A stretch of 33,459 bases of DNA. It comes from Collinsella bouchesdurhonensis. GTDB taxonomy: Bacteria; Actinomycetota; Coriobacteriia; Coriobacteriales; Coriobacteriaceae. The notes below the pieces were generated by a model that saw nothing but the letters and a program-made list of their open reading frames with translations, was not told where the DNA came from and ran no database searches. How positions within the stretch are numbered: position 1 is the first letter of the stretch; each line of letters starts with the position of its first letter. This document shows, piece after piece, positions 10,930-21,887 of the stretch. Made by a program: the position numbers and the translations under genes. Location: assembly GCF_900155365.1 (NCBI RefSeq), contig NZ_LT699743.1, positions 417,921-451,379 of the forward strand, read 5' to 3'.

Positions 10930-11919
10930 TTAGATCTTCACGCCCGGGAAGTGGCACTTCACAAAGTGGCCCGGGGTGTGCTCTTTCATCTGCGGAACCT
11001 CGGTCTTGCACTTCTCGGTAGCATGCGGGCAGCGCGTGTGAAACGGGCAGCCCGAAGGAATGTTCGTGGGGCTCGGCAGGTCGCCCTCAATAAGCACGTG
11101 CTTCTTCTCAATCGAAGGATCGGGGATGGGCACAGCGGAAAGCAGGGCCTGCGTATACAGATGCAGCGGGTTGCTGTAAAGATCCTCGTTGGGAGCGACC
11201 TCCATCAGCGAACCCAAGTACATGACGCCAATGCGATCGGAAATCATCTCAACAACAGCAAGGTCGTGGGAGATGAAGAGGTACGTCAGGTTGTACTGCT
11301 CCTGAACATCACGAAGAAGATTCAGAACCTGAGCCTGAATGGACACGTCAAGTGCCGAAACGGGCTCGTCGGCCATGATGAGCTTGGGGTTAACCGAAAG
11401 CGCGCGGGCGATGCCGATACGCTGACGCTGACCGCCAGAGAACTCGTGCGGATAGCGCTCGCCATGAGTGGCCGAAAGGCCAACGACCTCGAGCAGCTCC
11501 TGCGCCTTCTTCAGACGCTCGCCCTTGCTCATCTTGGTGTGAACAAGCAGCGGCTCGCTAATAATGTCCTGCACCTTCATGCGAGGATTGAGCGATCCAT
11601 ACGGGTCCTGAAACACCATCTGCATCTCGGCACGCAGCGGACGAACCTCCTTCTCGGAGAGCTTCGCCACGTCTTTGCCCTCAAAGAGAATCTCTCCCTC
11701 GTTGGGCTTGATGAGGTGGTTGATCAGACGGCTGGTGGTGGACTTACCACAGCCGGACTCGCCTACGAGCGAGAACGTCTCGCCGGGCATGATGTCAAAG
11801 GACACGTCGTTCACCGCGTGCACAAACTTGTTGGCACGACCGAAGAAGTCTTTGCCCACAGGGAACTTCTTGCTCAGGTGACGAACGGACAGCAACGGCT
11901 TGGTCTCAGTTGCACTCAT
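10930..11919 (-). CDS. oppF: Oligopeptide ABC transporter ATP-binding protein (OppF-type)
   Basis: This is one of two ATPases that drive the peptide importer from the cytoplasmic face. It is 329 residues from the ATG at 11919, which overlaps the oppD stop by one base (TAATG) and has a GAGGGGG ribosome site. Walker A is GESGCGKST at 53-61; the signature FSGGQRQRIGIARAL and Walker B LIMADEP follow, then SALD. The C-terminal oligopeptide/dipeptide domain has the Cys motif CPFHTRC-x5-C seen in this family. It is the last gene of the operon. Dpp, Opp and glutathione importers cannot be told apart from this subunit. Confidence 0.92.
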   Translation of the reverse strand: MSATETKPLLSVRHLSKKFPVGKDFFGRANKFVHAVNDVSFDIMPGETFSLVGESGCGKSTTSRLINHLIKPNEGEILFEGKDVAKLSEKEVRPLRAEMQMVFQDPYGSLNPRMKVQDIISEPLLVHTKMSKGERLKKAQELLEVVGLSATHGERYPHEFSGGQRQRIGIARALSVNPKLIMADEPVSALDVSIQAQVLNLLRDVQEQYNLTYLFISHDLAVVEMISDRIGVMYLGSLMEVAPNEDLYSNPLHLYTQALLSAVPIPDPSIEKKHVLIEGDLPSPTNIPSGCPFHTRCPHATEKCKTEVPQMKEHTPGHFVKCHFPGVKI

Positions 11920-12914
11920 TATTGCTGAGCCCCCTCTCGAGCATTGCGATAGAACGGACACGCGCAACGATGGCCCTCGGCAACCGTCTGGAGCTCAGGC
12001 AGCTTCTGCTTGCAGGAGTCCTGTGCATACTTGCAGCGCGGAGCGAAACGGCAGCCCTCGGGCATGACGGACAGATCGGGAACGGAGCCGGGGATGGACG
12101 GCAGGCGATGCAGGCGCTTGCCCAAACGCGGCACCGAAGCGATAAGGCCCTCGGTGTAGGGGTGCTGCGGGTTAGCGAACAGCTCTTTGACCGGTGCTTC
12201 CTCGACAATATTGCCAGCGTACATAACGATGACGCGGCTGCAGGTCTCGGCAACAACACCCAAGTCATGCGTGATGAGCAGGATGCCGGTGTTGCGACGG
12301 TTGCGAATGTCCTCCATCAGCGCCAAGATCTGCGCCTGAATGGTCACGTCGAGAGCCGTGGTGGGCTCGTCGGCAATCAGAAGCTTGGGCTCGCAAGACA
12401 TAGCCATAGCGATCATGACGCGCTGGCACATACCGCCCGAAAGCTCGTGCGGATAGTTGCGAAGCGTCATCTCGGGCTCGGGGATGCCCACGAGCTTGAG
12501 GGAGTTAACGCAACGCTCGTGAATCTCGGCCTTGCTCATGTTGCTGTTATGCAGGCTAATGGCCTCGGCAAGCTGGTCCTCGATGCGCATGATCGGGTCA
12601 AGAGCGCTCATGGGCTCCTGGAAGATCATGGACATCTCGTTGCCGCGCATGGACTGCATCTCGCTCGTAGTGAGGTCGAGAACCTCTTTGCCGCCAAACT
12701 TGATGGAGCCGGAAATCTTGGTCAGGCGCTCGTTATGCAGGCGCATGACAGAAAGCGAGGTTACGGATTTGCCGCAGCCGGACTCGCCAACCAAGCCCAC
12801 GATCTCGCCAGCGTTGACATTAAAGGACACGCCGTTTACCGCCGTAATCCAATCCTTCTTGCCACGCTTAAATTGCGTTCTGAGGTCCTTGACCTCCAAA
12901 AGAGTTTCAGACAT
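11919..12914 (-). CDS. oppD: Oligopeptide ABC transporter ATP-binding protein (OppD-type)
   Basis: This 331-residue ATPase is the partner of the next gene. Walker A GESGCGKS is at 43-50. The signature is LSGGMCQRV, with Met where many members have Gln. Walker B is LLIADEP, followed by TTALD. The C-terminal [14 protein letters not shown] is the family Cys cluster. AAGGAGG lies just before the ATG, inside the 10-base gap after oppC. This spacing and the TAATG overlap with oppF indicate one translated block. Confidence 0.92.
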
Positions 12915-12924
12915 CAGGGCCTCC

Positions 12925-13824
12925 TTAGTTCAGTCGCGGGTCGAGCGTGTCGCGCAGACCGTCACCGAACAGGTTGAAGGCAAGCACGGTCAAGAAAATC
13001 ACCAAGCCGGGGAAAAGGACCAGGTGCGGAGCAATAGCCAGGTAGTTGCGGCCCTGAGACAGGATCGCGCCCCACTCGGCTTGCGTCACGGATGCGCCGA
13101 AGCCCAGGAAGGACAGGGATGATGCCGAAAGGATGGCGCCACCGATGTTCATCGTGAAGTTGACGATGAGGGCCTGCATGGTACCCGGGAAGATGTGCAC
13201 GAACATGGTGCGAGCGGACGAGCAGCCAATGGACTGCGCCACCTCGACGTACAGCTCACCACGCACCTCGAGCACCGCGCCGCGAATAATGCGCGCAAAC
13301 GACGGCACCGTGAAAACGGCAACACCAATCATGATGTTGGTGATGCCCGGACCGATGATAGCCACGATGGCGATGGCGAGCAGGATGCCCGGGAACGCGA
13401 ACATAACGTCACAAACGCGCATGATAAGGGAGTCGACAATGCCGCCAAAGAAGCCGGCGATAAGACCAAAGACGACGCCCGCGGCGGTACCGATGATCGA
13501 AGCGGTAAGCGCCGTGCCAAGCGACAGCTGCGTGCCGGCAAGGATGCGGCTAAAGACATCTCGGCCAAACTCGTCGGTGCCCCACAGATGCCTAGCGGAA
13601 GGGCCAGCCAAAATCGCGCTGTAGTCGTACGCGTTGGGATCGTACGGCGTGATGTTGGGTCCGATCACGGCAAGAATCAGGATGAAGACGATAAACAGAA
13701 AGCCGATAACGGCGGTCTTGCGGCGCAAGAACTTTTTGACAAACTGCCTAACGGGGCTTTGCGCCTTCGGCAGCTCCTCAGCCTCACGCGTTGCGGAGGC
13801 AGCATTAGCAGTGGTATCAGACAT
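12925..13824 (-). CDS. oppC: Peptide ABC transporter permease (OppC-type)
   Basis: This 299-residue membrane protein has an N-terminal cytoplasmic stretch, a first helix (VIGFLFIVFILILAVIGPNI), an OppC/DppC N-terminal domain, and a BPD permease domain with about five more helices. The EAA-type loop that contacts the ATPases is near VEVAQSIGCSSARTMFVHIF. It pairs with the OppB-type permease to form the channel. AGGAGG precedes the ATG, 9 bases after the oppB stop. Confidence 0.92.
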   Translation of the reverse strand: MSDTTANAASATREAEELPKAQSPVRQFVKKFLRRKTAVIGFLFIVFILILAVIGPNITPYDPNAYDYSAILAGPSARHLWGTDEFGRDVFSRILAGTQLSLGTALTASIIGTAAGVVFGLIAGFFGGIVDSLIMRVCDVMFAFPGILLAIAIVAIIGPGITNIMIGVAVFTVPSFARIIRGAVLEVRGELYVEVAQSIGCSSARTMFVHIFPGTMQALIVNFTMNIGGAILSASSLSFLGFGASVTQAEWGAILSQGRNYLAIAPHLVLFPGLVIFLTVLAFNLFGDGLRDTLDPRLN

Positions 13825-13833
13825 GGCAACCTC

Positions 13834-14754
13834 CTATTCGTAGCGCACGCGCGGGTTAATGATGCCGTACAGGATGTCCGCAAGCAGGTTGATCACCATG
13901 TACTCCAGCGAGAAGAACAAAATGAGCGCCTGCACAACCTCGTAGTCGCGGAAGCCGATGGAATCGACGAGCAGACGGCCGAGGCCCGGAATCGAGAAAA
14001 CCGACTCGACCACGACGGAACCGGCGATCAATGCGCCGATCTGAAGCGCGGTGACGGTGATGACGTCGATGGAGGAGTTCTTGAACGCATGGCGCATAAT
14101 CACGCGATGCTCGGGCAGACCCTTGGCACGTGCCGTGCGAATGTAATCCTTGCCCAGGTTCTCAATCATCGAAGAACGCGTCACGCGCGCCAGAATACAC
14201 ATGATGCCCGCGCCCATGGCGATGGAGGGCAGGATGTAGCCCTTCCACGACTCAAGACCACCTGTAGGCAGGATCCTCAGGTTCACGGCGAAGATCTGCA
14301 TGAGCTGCAGACCCAGCCAGAAGTTAGGCAGCGAGATGCCGGCGATGGCGATAACCATGCCGATAAGATCGAACGCACGACCGCGGTTCACAGCGGCAAG
14401 AACGCCGATGATGATACCCATGATCGCAGACCAAGTAATGGAGCAAATGGTCAGGTAGATGGTGATGGGCAGGCGGGGCGCAAGGAGCGCGATGACGGTG
14501 GTCTTATTGGCATAAGAGACACCGAAATTACCCGTGAAAATACCGGTAATCCACTTGATGTACTGCGGTACCAAAGGCTGATTCAAACCAAGCTGGTTAC
14601 GAATCTCGTCCACTTCGCCGATGGTCGCGGTAGGACCGGCAATCTGGCGGGCGGGGTCACCGGGGATAAGGTGGATGAACAAGAAGATGATGATGGAGAT
14701 AACGAATAGCAGCGGAATCATGTTGATGATTCGCTTAACGGTGTATTTCCCCAT
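13834..14754 (-). CDS. oppB: Peptide ABC transporter permease (OppB-type)
   Basis: This 306-residue permease begins with a membrane helix (MIPLLFVISIIIFLFIHLIP) and the GDPA motif typical of OppB/DppB/GsiC. The EAA loop is YIRTARAKGLPEHRVIMRHA. It has about six helices. GGAGG lies upstream of the ATG. A strong hairpin separates it from oppA, so it is probably expressed at a lower level than the binding protein. Confidence 0.92.
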   Translation of the reverse strand: MGKYTVKRIINMIPLLFVISIIIFLFIHLIPGDPARQIAGPTATIGEVDEIRNQLGLNQPLVPQYIKWITGIFTGNFGVSYANKTTVIALLAPRLPITIYLTICSITWSAIMGIIIGVLAAVNRGRAFDLIGMVIAIAGISLPNFWLGLQLMQIFAVNLRILPTGGLESWKGYILPSIAMGAGIMCILARVTRSSMIENLGKDYIRTARAKGLPEHRVIMRHAFKNSSIDVITVTALQIGALIAGSVVVESVFSIPGLGRLLVDSIGFRDYEVVQALILFFSLEYMVINLLADILYGIINPRVRYE

Positions 14755-14794
14755 TTAGCTCCCTCCCCTTTCAAATCAAGGACAATCAAACCGC

Positions 14795-14829
14795 AAAACT
14801 GCCGGCCTCCGCGGACGGGAGGCCGGCAG
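14795..14829 (-). terminator. Hairpin terminator or attenuator between oppA and oppB
   Basis: CTGCCGGCCTCC (14799-14810) pairs perfectly with GGAGGCCGGCAG (14818-14829) over 12 bases. TTTT follows at 14798-14795 on the minus strand. Such a partial stop after the binding-protein gene is a common way to make more binding protein than permease. It may also protect the oppA message. Confidence 0.8.
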
Positions 14830-14875
14830 CCAAAACTGCTTGCTTGTCAGCTTACAGAATCAAACACGCGCAGCC

Positions 14876-16585
14876 TTAAGCGTTGAGCTTAGCGTGAGTG
14901 ACGTCGATGCCCTGAGCAACGTACTTGATGCCGGTAAGGTAAGCCTTGTAGGACATCAGCGTGTTGTCGGAAGCGAGGTACAGCCACGGGCACTCGGGCC
15001 AGACGATGTCCTGGCACTTGGCGTAGTGCTGGTTCTGCTCGTCCTCGGTCTTGCCCTCGTTGCCAAGCTGGAGCTCGTTGTCGAACTCTTCGTTCTTCCA
15101 GAAGGCGGTGTTGTAGCCGGTCGGAGGAGTCATAGCGGTGGAAAGCAGCGAACGCATGAAGCCGTCAGCGTCAGACTGGGACCAGTTAACGTACCACATC
15201 TGAATCTTGGTGGTGTCCTCGGGCTCGGCAGCGATCTCGGCGTTGGTAGCGGCCTCGTTGGGGACAACCTTGACCTCGATGCCAACTTTCTTGAGCTGCT
15301 GCATGACAAAGGTCATGCCCTTGGTCTCCTGCGTGGAGTTATCGCCGATGATCTCGACCTCGAAGCCATCCTCGTAGCCGGCCTCCTTGAGAAGGGACTT
15401 GGCCTTGTCGAGGTCGTAAGCAAACGGCTCCTGCTCCTTGTAACCGGGAACGAGAGCGGGGAGCACGGAGGTAGCCGGGGTAGCGGCACCAGCGTACATA
15501 ACCTTGACGTACTCGTCCTGGTTGAAGGCGTAGTTCATGGCCTGACGCACGCGAACGTCGGAGAGCTCCTTGACGTTGGTGTTAAGAGTCACATAGCGCA
15601 TGGTGGTGGAGGGCATGGAAACCATGTTGATGTCGCCAGCGCTGCGGACGGTAGCGACCTGGTCGGTCGGCATCGGGTAAATGACCGTAGCCTCACCAGT
15701 CTGAAGAGCGGCGATACGGGAACCAGCCTCGGGAATGATCTTGAAATCGACGCGGTCGATCGTGACCTCGCCCTCGTCCTTCTGGCCGCCCCAGTACTTG
15801 TCGTTCTTGACGAGCGAGCAGTGGTCGCCCTTTGCATACTCTTCGAGGACGTAAGGACCAGAGCCAGCGGACTTCTTGCCGTAATCGTAATCCGGATCGG
15901 TGACGACCTTAGGATTAACGATGTAGAACTGCGTGATGGAGTTCATGAACGGAGCGTAGGGCTTCGGCAGGTGGAAAGCGACCTTCAACGGATCGTCGTC
16001 AACCTTGTACACGTTGTCGATGCGAGTCTCTTCGGTGTTGTCATCGATGGTGCGGATGAACATGCGGCGGCGGCGCCAACCGTTCTCCTTCTTGATGCAC
16101 TCCTGATAGTTGGTGACGATAGCGTCTGCATCGAGCGGCGTACCGTCCTCAAAGGTGATGCCCTCATGAAGATGGAAGGTGTAGGTGCAGGCGTCCTCGG
16201 AAACCTCATAGGAGTCGGCAGCCTTCGGGATGAGGTTGTAGTCCTCGTCGAACGCATACAGGGAATCGTAGATGTAGTACACGACGTTGCCGGAGTTGCC
16301 GTCGGACCAGTTCATGGGGTGCATGTTCTGGATCTCGCCCTCGAGCGCGATGACGCACTCGTTCTTGGGGGCCTTGCCGTCGGTCTTCTCAGCCTTGACG
16401 ACGAAACCGTCCTTGTCAGCAACGATCTCCTCGACGGAGCTAGAGCTGGAGCCGGCTGCGGAGCCCTTGGTGTCGGAACCGGTGTTGCCGCAAGCAGCAA
16501 GACCGAGAGCGGCGGCGCCAGCAGCAGCGGCACCGACGAAACCACGGCGGGAAACGGCGGGGTTAAGCTTGTTTTCCAAGTCCAT
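14876..16585 (-). CDS. oppA: Peptide-binding lipoprotein of the ABC importer (family 5), Tat signal
   Basis: This is the surface-anchored binding protein that delivers peptides to the OppB/C channel. From the ATG at 16585 (AAAGGAGAG upstream) it is 569 residues. The N-terminus has a twin-arginine motif SRRGFV (12-17), a hydrophobic stretch, and a lipobox LAAC with Cys32 as the predicted lipid site. A Ser/Gly linker follows. The family 5 solute-binding fold runs from about 60 on, with landmarks such as LHEGITFEDGTPLDADAIV and the SGPYVLEEY block. The ligand (oligopeptide, dipeptide, glycopeptide or other) cannot be told from the sequence. It is divergent from the fucosidase gene across 273 bases. 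Confidence 0.9.
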   Translation of the reverse strand: MDLENKLNPAVSRRGFVGAAAAGAAALGLAACGNTGSDTKGSAAGSSSSSVEEIVADKDGFVVKAEKTDGKAPKNECVIALEGEIQNMHPMNWSDGNSGNVVYYIYDSLYAFDEDYNLIPKAADSYEVSEDACTYTFHLHEGITFEDGTPLDADAIVTNYQECIKKENGWRRRRMFIRTIDDNTEETRIDNVYKVDDDPLKVAFHLPKPYAPFMNSITQFYIVNPKVVTDPDYDYGKKSAGSGPYVLEEYAKGDHCSLVKNDKYWGGQKDEGEVTIDRVDFKIIPEAGSRIAALQTGEATVIYPMPTDQVATVRSAGDINMVSMPSTTMRYVTLNTNVKELSDVRVRQAMNYAFNQDEYVKVMYAGAATPATSVLPALVPGYKEQEPFAYDLDKAKSLLKEAGYEDGFEVEIIGDNSTQETKGMTFVMQQLKKVGIEVKVVPNEAATNAEIAAEPEDTTKIQMWYVNWSQSDADGFMRSLLSTAMTPPTGYNTAFWKNEEFDNELQLGNEGKTEDEQNQHYAKCQDIVWPECPWLYLASDNTLMSYKAYLTGIKYVAQGIDVTHAKLNA

Positions 16586-16695
16586 GAATACTCTCCTTTC
16601 GCGCCTGCGAGCCATCCAGAATCGCGGGCACCCTTTTTTCCTCTACGCGGCCTTCGAAGTCTTTCGTCTCCGCGAAGAACCACGCATCACATCTT

Positions 16696-16763
16696 ATTGT
16701 ATTAAATTCGCCCTGTTTCTCCGTTTACGATGCTTTAACATGACTATCCGAGCAGGTAAACGG
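16696..16763. promoter_or_regulatory. Shared control region of oppA and the fucosidase gene
   Basis: The 273-base divergent gap holds a perfect inverted repeat, CCGTTTAC (16721-16728) and GTAAACGG (16756-16763), separated by 27 bases. GTAAAC half-sites are typical of LacI-family operators, though here the halves are far apart. A minus-strand TACAAT (16701-16696) is a candidate -10 box for oppA, without a clear -35 box. No convincing plus-strand promoter was found by eye. Confidence 0.4.
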
Positions 16764-16858
16764 TGGGTCGACTTACCGCTCACACCTAAATAACTACCTT
16801 TCACGGCCCACAACACGTGATTTGTACACAAAACGTCGGCAGCAGAACGGAGATTGCC

Positions 16859-18208
16859 ATGACCTATCAGTTTGACCGCGTTCGGTATAACGAACGCATG
16901 AAATGGTACCTGCACGATCGCTTTGGCCTTTTCCTTCATTTCGGTTTGTACTCCATCCCCGCTCGCGGCGAATGGGTTCGCAGCGATGAGGAGATGCCTG
17001 AGGAACTATATCAGCCCTACTTCGATGAGTTCAACCCCTATGCCTTCGATGCCCGCGCCTGGGCACGCGCCGCACGTGAGGCCGGTATGAAATATGCCGT
17101 ACTCACCGCAAAGCATCACGACGGCTTTTGCCTCTTCGACACCCAGACCACCGACTGGAAATCAACCAAGACTCCCTTTGGGCGCGATATCGTCGCCGAG
17201 TTCCTCGAGGCGTTTCGTGCCGAGGGTCTAAAAGTAGGCCTGTACTACTCGATCATCGACTGGCACCACCCCGACTTCCCCCAGTACGGCGATCGCCAGG
17301 CCCCGCTGCGCAACGACCCCGTAGCAGGCTGCAACGATAAACGCGATTTCAACCGCTATCTCGACTACATGCACGAGCAGGTGCGCGAGCTGTGCACCAA
17401 TTACGGCAAGCTCGACCTGCTGTGGTTCGATTTTGCCTACGACTCGCCCGTCAACGGCATGAAGATGCGCGGCGAAACCTGGCGCGCAACCGAGCTCATG
17501 AGCATGGTGCGCGAGCTGCAGCCGCAGGTCATCACCGACAATCGCCTCGAGGTCTCGGGTGAGGGCTACGGATCGCTCGCAGAGTGCAACCCCACACCCT
17601 ATCACGGCGACTTCGTAACGCCCGAGCGCATCATCCCGCCGACCGGCATCCTGGACGCTGAGGGCAACCCCCTTGCCTGGGAATCTTGTATCACCATGAA
17701 CGACAACTGGGGCTACTGCTCTACCGACACCAACTACAAGCCCTCGTCGCTGCTCATCCACAAGCTGGTGGAGTGCGTCTCCAAGGGCGGCAATCTTATT
17801 CTCAATGTGGGCCCCGACGCGACAGGTCGCTTCCCCGAGCAGTCCTGCGCCATCCTGAAGGAGATCGGTGCCTGGATGGCGCGCAACTCCCAGAGCATCT
17901 ACGGCGCGGGCATGGCCGCAGGCGGCCCCATCGAGCCCGAGCGCCCCGAGTGGGGTCGCATCACACGCAACGGCAATACGTACTACTTCCATCTATATGA
18001 GAATGCCCTGGGCCCCGTGCCGCTCATGGGCGTGCCCAAAGATCGCATCGAGTCCATTCGCCTTCTGCGCGATGGCAGCGAGGTCAAGCTCTCTACCAGC
18101 TGGACGCACAGCGACTATCCCGACATCGCGTTCGCCGATCTGGGTCCCTCGCCCTATCTGCCCGATCCCGTTGACACCGTCTTGGCCGTCAAGATCAAGG
18201 AGAACTAA
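16859..18208 (+). CDS. GH29 alpha-L-fucosidase, cytoplasmic
   Basis: GH29 enzymes remove alpha-L-fucose from glycans by a retaining mechanism. From the ATG at 16859 (GGAGA upstream) the protein is 449 residues. Family landmarks are RFGLFLHFGLYSIPARGEW (about 21-39), the substrate-binding HHDGF at 86-90, and LDLLWFDF with the likely nucleophile Asp191. WESCITMNDNWGY at 274-286 is also typical. A small C-terminal beta domain follows. There is no signal peptide, lipobox or wall anchor, so it should act inside the cell on imported substrates. The next gene starts 3 bases after its stop, and its ribosome site overlaps the end of this gene, indicating coupling. The upstream in-frame ATG at 16817 is less likely. 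Confidence 0.93.
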   Translation: MTYQFDRVRYNERMKWYLHDRFGLFLHFGLYSIPARGEWVRSDEEMPEELYQPYFDEFNPYAFDARAWARAAREAGMKYAVLTAKHHDGFCLFDTQTTDWKSTKTPFGRDIVAEFLEAFRAEGLKVGLYYSIIDWHHPDFPQYGDRQAPLRNDPVAGCNDKRDFNRYLDYMHEQVRELCTNYGKLDLLWFDFAYDSPVNGMKMRGETWRATELMSMVRELQPQVITDNRLEVSGEGYGSLAECNPTPYHGDFVTPERIIPPTGILDAEGNPLAWESCITMNDNWGYCSTDTNYKPSSLLIHKLVECVSKGGNLILNVGPDATGRFPEQSCAILKEIGAWMARNSQSIYGAGMAAGGPIEPERPEWGRITRNGNTYYFHLYENALGPVPLMGVPKDRIESIRLLRDGSEVKLSTSWTHSDYPDIAFADLGPSPYLPDPVDTVLAVKIKEN

Positions 18209-18211
18209 CAC

Positions 18212-20854
18212 ATGCGTATTCTCTCCCCCGCCTTCGCATCCTTTGCCCAAGCTAAATTTGACGAGCGTGCCGAGCTGCTCAAGCCGCTCGCGAGCACCAT
18301 CGCCGCGGGCCTTGCCCGTGTCGACAACGCCGACGTCGCTGCGCTCATCAAAAATTACTATGGCACCCTACCGCTCACCGACGTATTCGACGCCGATTTC
18401 TCCGTGTTCGAATCCATCGCACGCCAAGCCGTCGAGCTTCGTACCACCTCGCCGTGGTGCCGCGATGTTGACGAAGATATCTTTATCCACTTTGTGGCAA
18501 CCCCGCGCGTGAACAACGAGCCGTTTGTCGATTCCTGGCCTATCCTGCGCAAGGAGCTTGCAGAACGCATCGCGGGCATGAGCGCGCACGACGCCGTGCT
18601 CGAGACCAACTACTGGTGCTGTGAGACCGCAACCTATCAGACTGCCGACGAGCGCACCCTGGGACCGCTGGGCATGCTGGCCTCCGGCAATGGCCGCTGT
18701 GGCGAAGAGTCAACCTATCTGGTCACCGCACTGCGCGCAAACGGCATCCCCGCTCGTCAGATTTACACCCCGCTTTGGGCCCATTGCGATGACAACCACG
18801 CCTGGGTCGAAGCGTATGTCGATGGCGAATGGTACTATCTGGGCGCCTGCGAGCCCGAAGAGGCGCTTAACCGCGGTTGGTTCACCGCCGCCTCCGGACG
18901 CGCCATGCTGGTGCACACCCGCTTGTTCTCCGACTACGGCTGCGATTTTGAGCGTGATCGCAGCATCCTCGCGCGCGAAGGCAGTCAGGTCATCGTGAAC
19001 CAAACGGCGGCCTACGGCCCCACCGTTAAGCTCACGGTTACGGTCACCAGTGAGGACGGCGCGCCCGTCCGCAATGCCTACGTGCGCCTGACGCTTGTAA
19101 ACTCCGCCGAATGGGGCGACATCGCGCACCTCATCACCGATGAATGCGGCCATGCCCAGATTGTGATCGGCGAGGGCACTCTGCGCGTTATCGCCGCAAC
19201 CGAACATCAAATGGCAGATGCCTTGGTCGACACCGATGAGTGCGATCACGTGGAACTTACCCTGCACGACGTGGACACGGCTGCAGCCGCCGCATGGCGC
19301 GATATCGACGTCCACGCACCGGCAGACCATCCCGCCCCCTCCTGCCCCCTCACGCCCGAACAGACAGCATCTGGCCGTGCTCGCAAGCAAGAGGCCGACC
19401 AGATGCGCACCGAGCGCGTGGCAGGCTTTGTCGAGGAGGCGCGTCGCCTGGCAAACGCCGCAGGCCATGGCAAAGACGAATGTCTCGCCTATTATGAGCA
19501 GGCTTTTGCCAATGCCCCCGAAGTTGATCGCTTCCTCTCCGTGGACAACGGCGCCGATCGCGTCCAGCTGCTCTCGACGCTCACCTCAAAGGACTTCCGC
19601 GACCTTACCGCCGATGTTTTGGAAGACCATCTGGCCGGCGCCCGCGCCATGCACGACGCCGCCATCGCTTACCTCGAGCGCGAGGGCGCAAAAGACGATG
19701 CCGAGGAGCTCTACGTCAAGTACGTCCTCGCTCCGCGCATCATGTTCGAGCAGCTCTCGAGCTTCCGCTCCTATTTTGTCGAGACTTTTGACGCGACGAC
19801 AGTCGAGGGGTTCCGCGCAGACCCGCGCCGTGTTTGGGACATGATTTGCGAAAACCTCGACTTCACCGCTTCCGAGCACGTCAAGAAGCTCTGCGCCAGC
19901 CCGCGCGGTGCCTGGCTCTCTCGCCAGGGCAGCCCCGTCACCTGCCGCGCGCTGTTCGTGGCAATCTGCCGCACCTTTGGTATCGCCGCTCGTCAAAACC
20001 CGCATGATCGCGCCATCGAGTATTACCACCAGGGCGCATTTGTGGCCGTCGAGCGCGCCGAGCATACCGCCGACGTCACGTTCACTTCCACCGTGGAGCC
20101 CGGTCCTGGATATTTCCAGGCCTGGAGCGTTGCCCGTCTGGAGACAAGCGTTACGGTTGCCGGAACTCGCGCGCTGGGCTTCGAGGCCCTCGACTTCTGG
20201 GGCGCCTCGGTCCAAGACGGCTCGTGCACGCTGCCGCTTCCCGCCGGCGATTATCGCCTGGTGTGCAGCACGCGCTTGCCCAACGGCGATACGCAGGCAG
20301 CCGAGCGCACCTTCCATGTAAGCGACGCAGGCACCGACAAGCCCATCGAACTCGTCCTGCGCGAGCCCGAGGCATCACAGATGCTCGAGGATATCGCACT
20401 CGAGGCCTTCGCCCTGTGCGACGCCGACGGCAACGTTGTCGATGCCGCAAAAATCGCTGCCGAGCACGGATCGGATTCACACCCGGTTGCCATCTCGTTC
20501 CTGGAGCCTGGAATGGAGCCTACCGAGCACCTGCTCAACGAGCTTCGTGAGCAGGCAGAGCGCGTCGCCGAAGCCGATCTGCCGCTCGTCCTCGTGATCA
20601 GCGACCCCGCCCAACTCGATGACCCCACACTCGCTCGCACGCTTCCCACGCTCACCGGCGCGACCATCGCCTACGACGACTTTACCGAGCTGCCCGAGAA
20701 GCTCGCTCGCCGCATGTTTGCGAATCCCGAGAAGCTGCCGCTCACGGTGCTTGCCTGCAAGCAGCCCGACGGCAGCCTGCGCGGCGTCTATGCAACCGCC
20801 GGTTACAACGTTGGCACTGTCGATTTGCTGATGAAGCTCATCACTCTCGTCTAG
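18212..20854 (+). CDS. Large transglutaminase-fold protein, PNGase-like motifs, function unknown
   Basis: This 880-residue protein has no signal peptide. An N-terminal helical part (1-130) leads to a transglutaminase-like core: Cys163 in GNGRCGEESTYLV, His196 in NHAWVEAYV, then WYYLGACEPE at 207-216. GRCGE, HxWxE and W-x5-ACE are the pattern of eukaryotic peptide:N-glycanase, but the third catalytic residue, Asp in PNGase (D-S/A-C-E), is Gly211 here. A beta domain like carboxypeptidase regulatory repeats follows (about 270-350). A second region (about 540-630) has GSPVTCRALFVAICRTFGIAARQNP as a whole, with Cys578, and resembles a decayed second core. Another beta domain (about 640-715) and a C-terminal part with a thioredoxin-like pattern end the protein. 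Homologues with GRCGEE and GACEPE exist in other gut bacteria, to my memory uncharacterised. Hydrolysis of glycopeptides is inferred from the fucosidase partner. Confidence 0.8.
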   Translation: MRILSPAFASFAQAKFDERAELLKPLASTIAAGLARVDNADVAALIKNYYGTLPLTDVFDADFSVFESIARQAVELRTTSPWCRDVDEDIFIHFVATPRVNNEPFVDSWPILRKELAERIAGMSAHDAVLETNYWCCETATYQTADERTLGPLGMLASGNGRCGEESTYLVTALRANGIPARQIYTPLWAHCDDNHAWVEAYVDGEWYYLGACEPEEALNRGWFTAASGRAMLVHTRLFSDYGCDFERDRSILAREGSQVIVNQTAAYGPTVKLTVTVTSEDGAPVRNAYVRLTLVNSAEWGDIAHLITDECGHAQIVIGEGTLRVIAATEHQMADALVDTDECDHVELTLHDVDTAAAAAWRDIDVHAPADHPAPSCPLTPEQTASGRARKQEADQMRTERVAGFVEEARRLANAAGHGKDECLAYYEQAFANAPEVDRFLSVDNGADRVQLLSTLTSKDFRDLTADVLEDHLAGARAMHDAAIAYLEREGAKDDAEELYVKYVLAPRIMFEQLSSFRSYFVETFDATTVEGFRADPRRVWDMICENLDFTASEHVKKLCASPRGAWLSRQGSPVTCRALFVAICRTFGIAARQNPHDRAIEYYHQGAFVAVERAEHTADVTFTSTVEPGPGYFQAWSVARLETSVTVAGTRALGFEALDFWGASVQDGSCTLPLPAGDYRLVCSTRLPNGDTQAAERTFHVSDAGTDKPIELVLREPEASQMLEDIALEAFALCDADGNVVDAAKIAAEHGSDSHPVAISFLEPGMEPTEHLLNELREQAERVAEADLPLVLVISDPAQLDDPTLARTLPTLTGATIAYDDFTELPEKLARRMFANPEKLPLTVLACKQPDGSLRGVYATAGYNVGTVDLLMKLITLV

Positions 20855-20883
20855 TGCAAGGCGAGCTGTATTCGCCAACAAGC

Positions 20884-20917
20884 AAAGGGGGCGCCTCGTC
20901 TGAGGCGCCCCCTTTTT
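20884..20917. terminator. Strong bidirectional terminator
   Basis: GGGGGCGCCTC (20887-20897) and GAGGCGCCCCC (20902-20912) form 11 perfect pairs around a 4-base loop, flanked by AAA on the left and TTTTT on the right. It ends both the fucosidase operon (plus) and the ROK kinase gene (minus). Confidence 0.92.
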
Positions 20918-20942
20918 GCTGTGATCGATATGACAAGGCGTG

Positions 20943-21887
20943 TTACGCGTTGGTCACCGCGTAGTAGGCGGCGCCGAGCATGCCGGCGTCGTTGCCAAGA
21001 GAGGCAACGGTGATGGGCGTGTCCGCGCAACAAGACAGCGTCATCTTCTTGAACACCTCGGTCACGCGGTCAAGATAATGCTCAGCACCGGCAGAAACGC
21101 CACCGCCCAGCACGAAGACCTCGGGATCGAAAGAGCATGCGGCGTTGGCGAGCTCGAAACCCAGAGCGCCTGCCATGGTATCGACAGCGGCACGCGCGGC
21201 TTCATCGCCTGCAACGAGGGCTTCGAACACGCTGCGCGAATCGGAAGGACCGGAAAGCTCAACAGGCTCGCTACCACGCTTCTCGCACTCCAAGCGATAG
21301 CTGTTCACGATGCCCGTAGCCGAAGCATACTGCTCCAAGCAGCCATAACGACCACAGCCGCACTGACGCGTCTCGGCAGGATTGACAATCACGTGACCCA
21401 GCTCGCCCGCAGCGCCGTTCGCACCTGCAAGAACCTTGCCGTCGCACACAACGCCCGCACCGATGCCAGTGCCGAGCGTCACGAACACGAGGCTGTTATA
21501 GCCCGCACCGGCGCCGCGCCAAAGCTCTCCCATAGCGGCCGCGTTGGCATCGTTGAGAAAACCAACGTATACGCCCGGGAAGGAAGCCTGGAGCGCGTCG
21601 TGCACGCCCAACAAATTGAGACTCAGGTTGGCGATGACAGAAATGTTTCCGTCGGCAGGAACGGGGCAGGGAACTGCAAGGCCGATACCCTTGAGCAGGG
21701 AAGCATCGACATCGGCACCCTCGAGCACGGACTTGACGCCATCCGTGACGGCGGTATAACCGGCCTCGTCAACCAGCGGAGGCGTGGGGACGCCCGCCTT
21801 GGCAACGACGTCACCTTCTTTGGTCATAACGCCGATCTTGACCGAAGTACCGCCCACGTCGATGCCAACATAGAGTTCGTCTGCCAT
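20943..21887 (-). CDS. ROK-family sugar kinase (glucokinase-like)
   Basis: ROK kinases phosphorylate glucose or related sugars with ATP. The 314-residue protein starts with the phosphate-binding loop GIDVGGTSVKIG. It has the catalytic Asp in FLNDANAAAMGE, GTGIGAGVV, and the ROK signature E-L-G-H with the zinc-binding CGCGRYGCLE. It lacks the DNA-binding N-terminus of ROK repressors, so it is an enzyme. Glucokinase is the usual call, but N-acetylglucosamine or N-acetylmannosamine kinase is possible. AAGGGA lies before the ATG. It follows pcrA on the same strand after a repeat-rich gap. Confidence 0.9.
   Translation of the reverse strand: MADELYVGIDVGGTSVKIGVMTKEGDVVAKAGVPTPPLVDEAGYTAVTDGVKSVLEGADVDASLLKGIGLAVPCPVPADGNISVIANLSLNLLGVHDALQASFPGVYVGFLNDANAAAMGELWRGAGAGYNSLVFVTLGTGIGAGVVCDGKVLAGANGAAGELGHVIVNPAETRQCGCGRYGCLEQYASATGIVNSYRLECEKRGSEPVELSGPSDSRSVFEALVAGDEAARAAVDTMAGALGFELANAACSFDPEVFVLGGGVSAGAEHYLDRVTEVFKKMTLSCCADTPITVASLGNDAGMLGAAYYAVTNA

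Follow-up and report, generated by a model that had tools for sequence, protein, structure and literature searches.

What does a gut-type bacterium do with a fucosidase gene that is joined to the gene of a transglutaminase-fold protein and faces a peptide importer? This question is raised by a stretch of 33,459 nucleotides of Collinsella bouchesdurhonensis (contig NZ_LT699743.1), and this whole stretch is called the window below; the "gut" label for the organism rests on its relatives. The initial annotation suggested that the locus may import fucosylated glycopeptides, remove fucose by an enzyme of glycoside hydrolase family 29 (GH29) and release the glycan inside the cell by an 880-residue transglutaminase-fold protein (TG) resembling peptide:N-glycanase (PNGase). 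Based on the data given here, the TG family very probably belongs to the catabolism of glycans or glycopeptides, with a reservation for one Olsenella/Thermophilibacter-like group. We lean slightly towards a more specific reading, in which the locus would be a cassette for scavenging N-glycopeptides and TG the cytoplasmic amidase for the linkage between N-acetylglucosamine and asparagine (GlcNAc-Asn). Our argument starts from gene order, gene families, residue conservation, co-occurrence and association against controls, all of which were observed directly.

The gene pair and the importer

The GH29 gene (16859..18208, + strand; ATG 16859, stop 18208) and the TG gene (18212..20854, + strand) are 3 bases apart, and the ribosome site AAGGAG (18197-18202) lies within the 3' end of the GH29 gene, 9 nucleotides upstream of the TG start. 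Family membership is given by the Pfam profiles Alpha_L_fucos for GH29 (297 bits against a threshold of 25.2, E 2.9e-88) and Transglut_core, of the transglutaminase-like superfamily, for TG (PF01841; 81 bits against a gathering threshold of 23, E 9.3e-23, in two stretches), and NCBIfam at E up to 1 gave no family for either protein. No signal peptide is visible in the two N-termini (MTYQFDRVRYN... and MRILSPAFASF...), which were judged soluble by eye, and TG residues 6-18 form a helix belonging to the domain (AlphaFold block, predicted local distance difference test (pLDDT) 95-98).

Across a divergent intergenic region of 273 bases (16586..16858, between the binding-protein start at 16585 and the GH29 start at 16859), a complete peptide importer of the ATP-binding cassette (ABC) type is encoded on the - strand. 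Its SBP_bac_5 solute-binding lipoprotein (P0003, 14876..16585, from profile matches) has an RR motif and a Cys after an Ala/Gly-rich stretch, and matches the NCBIfam model of the twin-arginine translocation (TAT) signal with 18.5 bits (cut-off 16.7). The permeases are of the GsiC/OppB type (13834..14754) and the GsiD/OppC type (12925..13824), the GsiC and GsiD models being best and below cut-off. The ATPases, both with PF00005 and PF08352, are of the OppD/DppD type (11919..12914) and the OppF/DppF type (10930..11967; NF008453 414.8 bits, cut-off 408); the open reading frame of the latter was taken as listed, and its true start may be further in. The initial annotation had thus described the close spacing, the overlapping ribosome site, the missing signal peptides and the complete importer correctly.

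Association with glycan catabolism

We have surveyed 81 loci, i.e., the 80 closest related loci and the window's own, and counted partners within 9 kb. The related loci come from Collinsella, Olsenella, Olegusella, Thermophilibacter, Lachnospiraceae, Oscillospiraceae, Clostridium, Paenibacillus, Bifidobacterium and others. Partner matches were counted above 100 bits, and the neighbour scan covered 84 of the 116 listed neighbours. At least one partner is present in 59 loci: GH29 in 20, CutC in 29, M17 in 11, GH18 in 6 and a permease pair in 41 (23 of the Opp type, 20 of the Lpl type, 2 with both); GH29 and the importer pair stand together in 17. A GH29-TG junction of 3-6 bases recurs in 9 of the 81 loci (eight Coriobacteriia, own locus included, and the Lachnospiraceae locus L058), so the adjacency is not chance. 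In L130, the genes form a single same-strand run, SBP5-OppB-OppC-two ATPases-GH29-DeoR-CutC-TG, and L124 is similar; the two gene orders, divergent in Coriobacteriia and a same-strand run in these two loci, speak for a link that is functional rather than merely historical. Clustered at 40% identity, the GH29s near TG give 6 groups, and therefore GH29 has probably been recruited to TG repeatedly.

A comparison with control regions was made in Lachnospiraceae, where loci were drawn evenly and independently of likeness to the window. The partner families had been picked from the 81 closest loci and were then counted in this sample of 20 loci, which came from 19 of the 24 TG genomes (G205, G242, G296, G312 and G423 were left out) and included 7 loci of less than 19.9 kb. 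As controls, 20 regions were taken from TG-bearing contigs of 7 of the sampled genomes, at positions picked by hand and not at random. An importer pair, GH29, GH18, CutC or M17 was found in 17/20 TG loci vs 2/20 control regions (Fisher 3e-6), and in 14/17 (1e-5) when the three loci shared with the discovery set (L114, L117 and L118, which are L013, L052 and L051) were excluded. Taken singly (n = 20 each), GH29 was counted 8 vs 0 times (P 0.003), CutC 8 vs 0, M17 7 vs 0, GH18 3 vs 0 and the importer pair 11 vs 2. The linkage of TG with its partners is far beyond chance, and its homologues are strongly associated with fucosidases, with further enzymes of glycan breakdown and with importers for peptides.

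The same association is seen across genomes. The window's order was represented by 197 genomes, of which 17 have TG and 11 the window GH29; the binding protein is present in the same 11, and all lie within the 17 TG genomes (hypergeometric 4e-14). Of 200 Lachnospiraceae genomes, 24 have TG, and the binding protein was found in 5 of these 24 and in none of the others (1.7e-5). These P-values treat genomes as independent, though they are related, and 4e-14 is uncorrected for kinship. Orthologues of the binding protein (E up to 1e-100) are confined to TG-bearing genomes in both samples. Five Firmicutes genomes have a window-type binding protein above 370 bits, at the TG locus by coordinates in four (contig identity being assumed for G216 and G221) and elsewhere in one (G212). 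The binding protein of Lacrimispora-type TG loci is a different one.

The neighbouring enzymes together match, as far as families can tell, the sugars of N-glycans, and the M17, M28 and M18 aminopeptidases of sister loci match the peptide; TG, with a fold suited to cutting amides, stands between the two. A minority of the 81 loci carry GH2 beta-mannosidase-like (4), NagA-like (5), NagB-like (6) or L-fucose isomerase (2) genes, and a gene of the D-lyxose-isomerase family, found together with GH2 beta-mannosidase-like genes, was counted in 4; GH20 was found in 2 sampled neighbours and GH38 in 1, and GH2 beta-galactosidase is also among the neighbours. GH29 together with GH18 is a frequent addition in relatives whose importer is of the sugar type (LplB/YtcP). 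The GH18 is near N-acetylglucosaminidase 6inx (E 3e-92), ranked after chitinase 5gzu/5gzt, and five of the six surveyed GH18s have no signal peptide by eye, while that of L028 may have one.

Since genomics does not fix the substrate, TG might instead be another amide-cutting or acyl-transfer enzyme of glycan catabolism, acting for example on glycosylamines, muropeptides or amide-linked sugars other than N-glycans. Muropeptide recycling would suit NagA, NagB, ROK, GH3, GH18 and the Opp importer, but the fucosidase, fucose isomerase, beta-mannosidase-like, lyxose-type isomerase and alpha-mannosidase neighbours misfit peptidoglycan. We have ranked muropeptide recycling low because of these fucose- and mannose-related neighbours, and regard the other-amide explanation as a whole as quite improbable.

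Three observations on neighbours stand apart from this argument. CutC (PF03932), an old "copper homeostasis" family, is among the commonest TG neighbours (e.g., L016, L018, L021, L023, L025, L059 and L130), and we know of no CutC role that explains this association. In L073, L079, L115, L121 and L123, the surroundings of TG include a GHL6-type putative glycosidase of about 665 amino acids, next to M17 and an LplB/YtcP importer; that of L073 gave a weak match to the GH29 profile (E 5.5e-4), and the protein is possibly a further fucosidase-like family. In the Olsenella/Thermophilibacter-like group (L015, L017, L020, L024, L029-L031, L033-L035 and L038), TG lies in its own conserved context, with no fucosidase, importer pair, CutC or M17 near it.

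Domains and conserved residues of TG

The full-length AlphaFold model of TG (60 sequences) has pLDDT 92.1 and a predicted template modelling score (pTM) of 0.91. Residues ~1-255 form a helical N-terminus and the transglutaminase domain with Cys and His. An immunoglobulin (Ig)-like domain at ~270-350 has a homologue in 3e8v, a fragment from Bacteroides fragilis (profile E 2.3e-17), and a second TG-like domain without the conserved Cys at ~520-625 is followed by beta strands. The C-terminus (725-880) is thioredoxin-like, with ResA 2f9s as match (Z 13.8, root-mean-square deviation (rmsd) 2.8, 135 aligned). A further active site was considered for the second TG-like domain and rejected, since Cys163 is matched there mostly by Pro, Glu, Leu or Ala. 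The family is large, with at least 574 relatives in one scan. A TG search of the window's own genome gave one match, which is itself, and two further Transglut_core matches lie elsewhere in this genome.

Sixteen residues are invariant in 102/102 TG sequences: C163, R182, Q183, W189, H191, C192, D194, N195, H196, W198, E200, W207, G211, C213, E214 and P215. The 102 comprise the window, the own-genome copy, the 80 loci and the 20 sampled loci, with at least 4 duplicates, and full-length identities are as low as 34% in alignment A1 (A1 and A2 hold 59 of the 80 related loci and the window, fragments and near-duplicates being excluded) and 32% in the Lachnospiraceae sample. This conservation bears on the view that TG is a non-catalytic or regulatory partner whose association merely reflects glycan loci in general. 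The second TG-like domain, which has no conserved Cys, and the thioredoxin-like domain, which lacks CxxC beyond residue 720 in 100 of the 102 sequences (just 2 have it), would fit such a role, but in the first TG domain the Cys, the His and more than 12 further residues stay unchanged despite identities down to 32%. Since these residues are invariant at low overall identity, the first domain looks as expected of an active enzyme, and we consider a non-catalytic role highly improbable.

The motifs GRCGEE, NHAWVE and ACE named by the initial annotation are present; the spacing given there as W-x5-ACE is W-x4-ACE by our count. Two of the motifs discriminate: GRCGE-type (RCGE) and xCE motifs are found in 8/8 TG family members and 0/16 other bacterial transglutaminases of the same genomes, and 3isr, a putative cysteine protease of Cytophaga, also lacks RCGE (from the alignment only). 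HxWxE is common to many transglutaminases and does not discriminate. This control used 30 transglutaminase loci, of which 8 belong to the family, 16 others fit the search pattern and 6 non-fitting ones were dropped; four pairs among the 16 are 70-92% identical. When the TG domain was searched against PDB profiles, 3isr came first (E 0.0032), mouse and yeast PNGases were hits 2-4 (E 0.009-0.013) and TG3 had E ~1, and hhalign of TG with the mouse PNGase stretch gave 95.6% over 62 columns with 34% identity. The PNGase-like character claimed at the outset is thus supported by the GRCGE and xCE motifs and by the profile rank, and opposed by the loss of an Asp and by the fold scores given next.

Weighing the amidase reading

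A number of findings count against TG as a GlcNAc-Asn amidase in a scavenging cassette. In alignments to 2f4m and 1x3w, the catalytic Asp of PNGase corresponds to Gly211 in 102/102 TG sequences, so that only C163 and H196 of the Cys-His-Asp triad are present; the 16 other transglutaminases carry Asp (11) or Glu (5) at this position. This Asp is essential in PNGase, according to PMC3502110. Because the full 880-residue fold search was swamped by the thioredoxin-like C-terminus, the TG domain was refolded alone (AlphaFold2, pLDDT 90.9). The initial annotation had named a fold match closer to unrelated transglutaminases than to PNGase as a refutation, and such a result was obtained: TG2/factor XIII (6a8p_C, Z 11.3, rmsd 3.2, 169 aligned) and 3isr_B (Z 10.2, rmsd 3.2, 146 aligned) outscore yeast and mouse PNGase (3esw_A, Z 7.9, rmsd 6.2, 166 aligned; 2f4o_A, Z 7.7, rmsd 4.7, 149 aligned), and Foldseek ranks 3isr first (E 5.6e-6) and mouse PNGase sixth (4.7e-3). 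The nearest solved structure to the window GH29 is 6gn6 (546 bits, E 5e-163; AlfC 140 bits), and GH29 relatives of the P. thiaminolyticus iso1 kind are described, in PMC11189522 and PMC7872956, as having little action on natural fucosides or a preference for alpha-1,2; since these reports are mixed, core alpha-1,6 specificity of the window enzyme is not assured. An Opp-type importer may carry plain peptides, and in G212 the window-type importer stands apart from TG. Furthermore, 22 of the 81 loci have no partner within 9 kb (11 of these are the Olsenella/Thermophilibacter-like group), neither GH29 nor the binding protein occurs in 6 of the order's 17 TG genomes, which belong to a single genus, and CutC, despite its 29 loci, has no known place in the proposed scheme.

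As a separate observation on G212, its importer genes (L154, contig C27, 8281-16439) are followed by M17 and a ROK gene, with no TG within the 20-kb stretch, which suggests, from gene content, that this importer by itself supports the breakdown of peptides and sugars.

The absence of the PNGase Asp, 3isr as the best sequence and Foldseek match of the TG domain, and the M17, M28 and M18 aminopeptidases in sister loci would all suit a cysteine peptidase whose target is the peptide portion of the glycopeptides taken up, or of fucosylated peptides in general; the glycosidases would then deal with the sugar, and the sugar-Asn bond would be cut otherwise or never. However, the GRCGE and xCE motifs are PNGase-like and absent from the 16 other transglutaminases, and a plain peptidase need not track fucosidases. 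The glycosylasparaginase family (PF01112) is absent from 26 of the 29 TG genomes searched, the 3 carriers being Bifidobacterium, so the GlcNAc-Asn amide is left without this known candidate. We regard the peptidase explanation as unlikely.

Cleavage of the GlcNAc-Asn amide by TG is favoured because of the motifs, the missing glycosylasparaginase and the parallel with L. casei described below, and the missing Asp and the fold scores oppose it; as an individual claim, we find it evenly balanced. Papain-like enzymes with migrated or changed catalytic residues are described in PMC10318531, and because of them loss of the Asp is compatible with catalysis. The available literature also gives PNGases two CxxC motifs near the core and, in animals, PUB/PAW domains, not all of them universal. 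No CxxC was read in TG residues 1-262, and neither PUB nor PAW was matched by Pfam at E up to 1; the profile of Asparaginase_2 (PF01112, the AsnA2 type) gave no match in TG either. TG likely works like a PNGase, and it appears to resemble human NGLY1 without being identical to it; that it is a Png1 is not supported.

Proposed pathway and known systems

From these observations, we infer that the enzymes act in the cytoplasm, what is imported, in which order the steps follow and, most of all, which bond TG cuts, as follows. Outside the cell, endoglycosidases and proteases of other microbes would make short peptides with a trimmed stub (fucosyl-GlcNAc-Asn), which the lipoprotein-dependent Opp/Gsi-type ABC importer would take up. 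In the cytoplasm, GH29 would strip the fucose, and Cys163 and His196 of TG would attack the GlcNAc-Asn amide to give 1-amino-GlcNAc and an Asp-containing peptide. The peptide may then be finished by aminopeptidases (M17/M28, present in many sister loci), and GlcNAc would be catabolized through the ROK-family sugar kinase of the cassette (20943..21887, - strand, convergent; best NCBIfam model ROK glucokinase, below cut-off) and nagA, which is present elsewhere in the genome (296 bits, over cut-off). In relatives with the LplB/YtcP importer, GH29 with GH18 and, in single loci, GH20, GH2 or GH38 may trim larger glycans. Because a profile search of the window's genome gave no GH18 or GH85 match, the organism would depend on the stubs of others.

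We hold more tentatively a wider proposal, that TG represents a cytoplasmic transglutaminase-fold PNGase family in gut-type Actinomycetota and Bacillota. In such a family the site would be rewired, the canonical Asp being lost and either an acid within the HCDDN insertion or the xCE Glu helping the His, the duplicated Cys-less TG domain would support this active site, and CutC may be a partner handling the released sugar or glycosylamine.

The closest parallel is the alf-2 cluster of L. casei (AlfH, AlfC, PepV, AsnA2 and SugK), in which, according to PMC6960285, a permease, GH29, peptidase, AsnA2 and ROK kinase carry out the work proposed here. That cluster serves, and the window cluster would serve, import of a fucosylated GlcNAc-Asn compound, defucosylation by GH29 and a cytoplasmic cut of GlcNAc-Asn, together with a peptidase and a ROK kinase. 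The alf-2 cluster, as described there, has a permease of the major facilitator superfamily, an AlfC-type GH29 and the N-terminal nucleophile (Ntn) glycosylasparaginase AsnA2, whereas the window has an ABC importer, an iso1-like GH29 and a transglutaminase-fold protein. The importer, GH29, TG and ROK genes of such a pathway are found together and look block-transferred; in the best reading, TG stands where AsnA2 stands in L. casei and would perform the amidase step.

With Png1/NGLY1, TG shares the transglutaminase core, the GRCGE, HxWxE, W and xCE motifs and, presumably, the cytoplasmic setting. It differs in the Gly at the catalytic Asp, the insertion TPxWAHCDDN before the His, the added Ig-like, TG-like and thioredoxin-like domains without PUB/PAW, and its probable role in bacterial nutrition, not protein quality control. 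With 3isr, TG2, factor XIII and 3e8v, TG shares folds. The reaction proposed for TG is that of the secreted bacterial PNGases (PNGase F, PNGase H+ and Bacteroides PNGases), which act outside the cell, have folds different from that of TG and gave no Pfam match in TG at E up to 1. Release of the glycan outside the cell is the common description of how bacteria feed on N-glycoproteins (review PMC10154615), and the accessible text of this review names no transglutaminase-fold bacterial PNGase. A literature search, with subscription journals and preprints outside its cover, found no description of such a system.

Probable transfer of the cassette, and flanking elements

The eight genes from OppF to ROK (10930-21887) share 85-93% identity with their counterparts in Olegusella massiliensis, which belongs to a different family of the same order, while TG is just 62-64% identical to the Collinsella loci of the same genus. 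In the stretches compared, no counterparts of the pyrophosphatase, NhaA and PcrA genes that flank the block in the window were seen next to the Olegusella block. Because of the high identity with Olegusella, the low identity of TG within Collinsella and the different flanks, the block, ROK included, looks like a transferred unit, and transfer of the whole cassette, in either direction, is probable.

In the divergent intergenic region, an 8-nucleotide inverted repeat, CCGTTTAC/GTAAACGG (16721-16728/16756-16763), is partly kept in Olegusella by eye and is a possible candidate operator. A consensus promoter scan gave 2 sites (0.9 expected), none of them inside this region. An intrinsic-terminator-like hairpin with a T run lies 3' of the TG gene (20886..20917, + strand); it was absent from the consensus scan output and was found by minimum-free-energy folding (-34 kcal/mol, z -5.9 for 20875-20928).

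Biological meaning

If the scavenging reading is true, TG would provide a second chemistry for the intracellular pathway known from L. casei, and would explain how an organism without GH18 and GH85 endoglycosidases could use the leftovers of others. It would also offer new deglycosylation enzymes, a bacterial model for the NGLY1 fold and a testable function for the large TG family, and perhaps also for CutC. If the transglutaminase-fold PNGase proposal is true, bacteria would have a counterpart of NGLY1 that serves feeding, not quality control.

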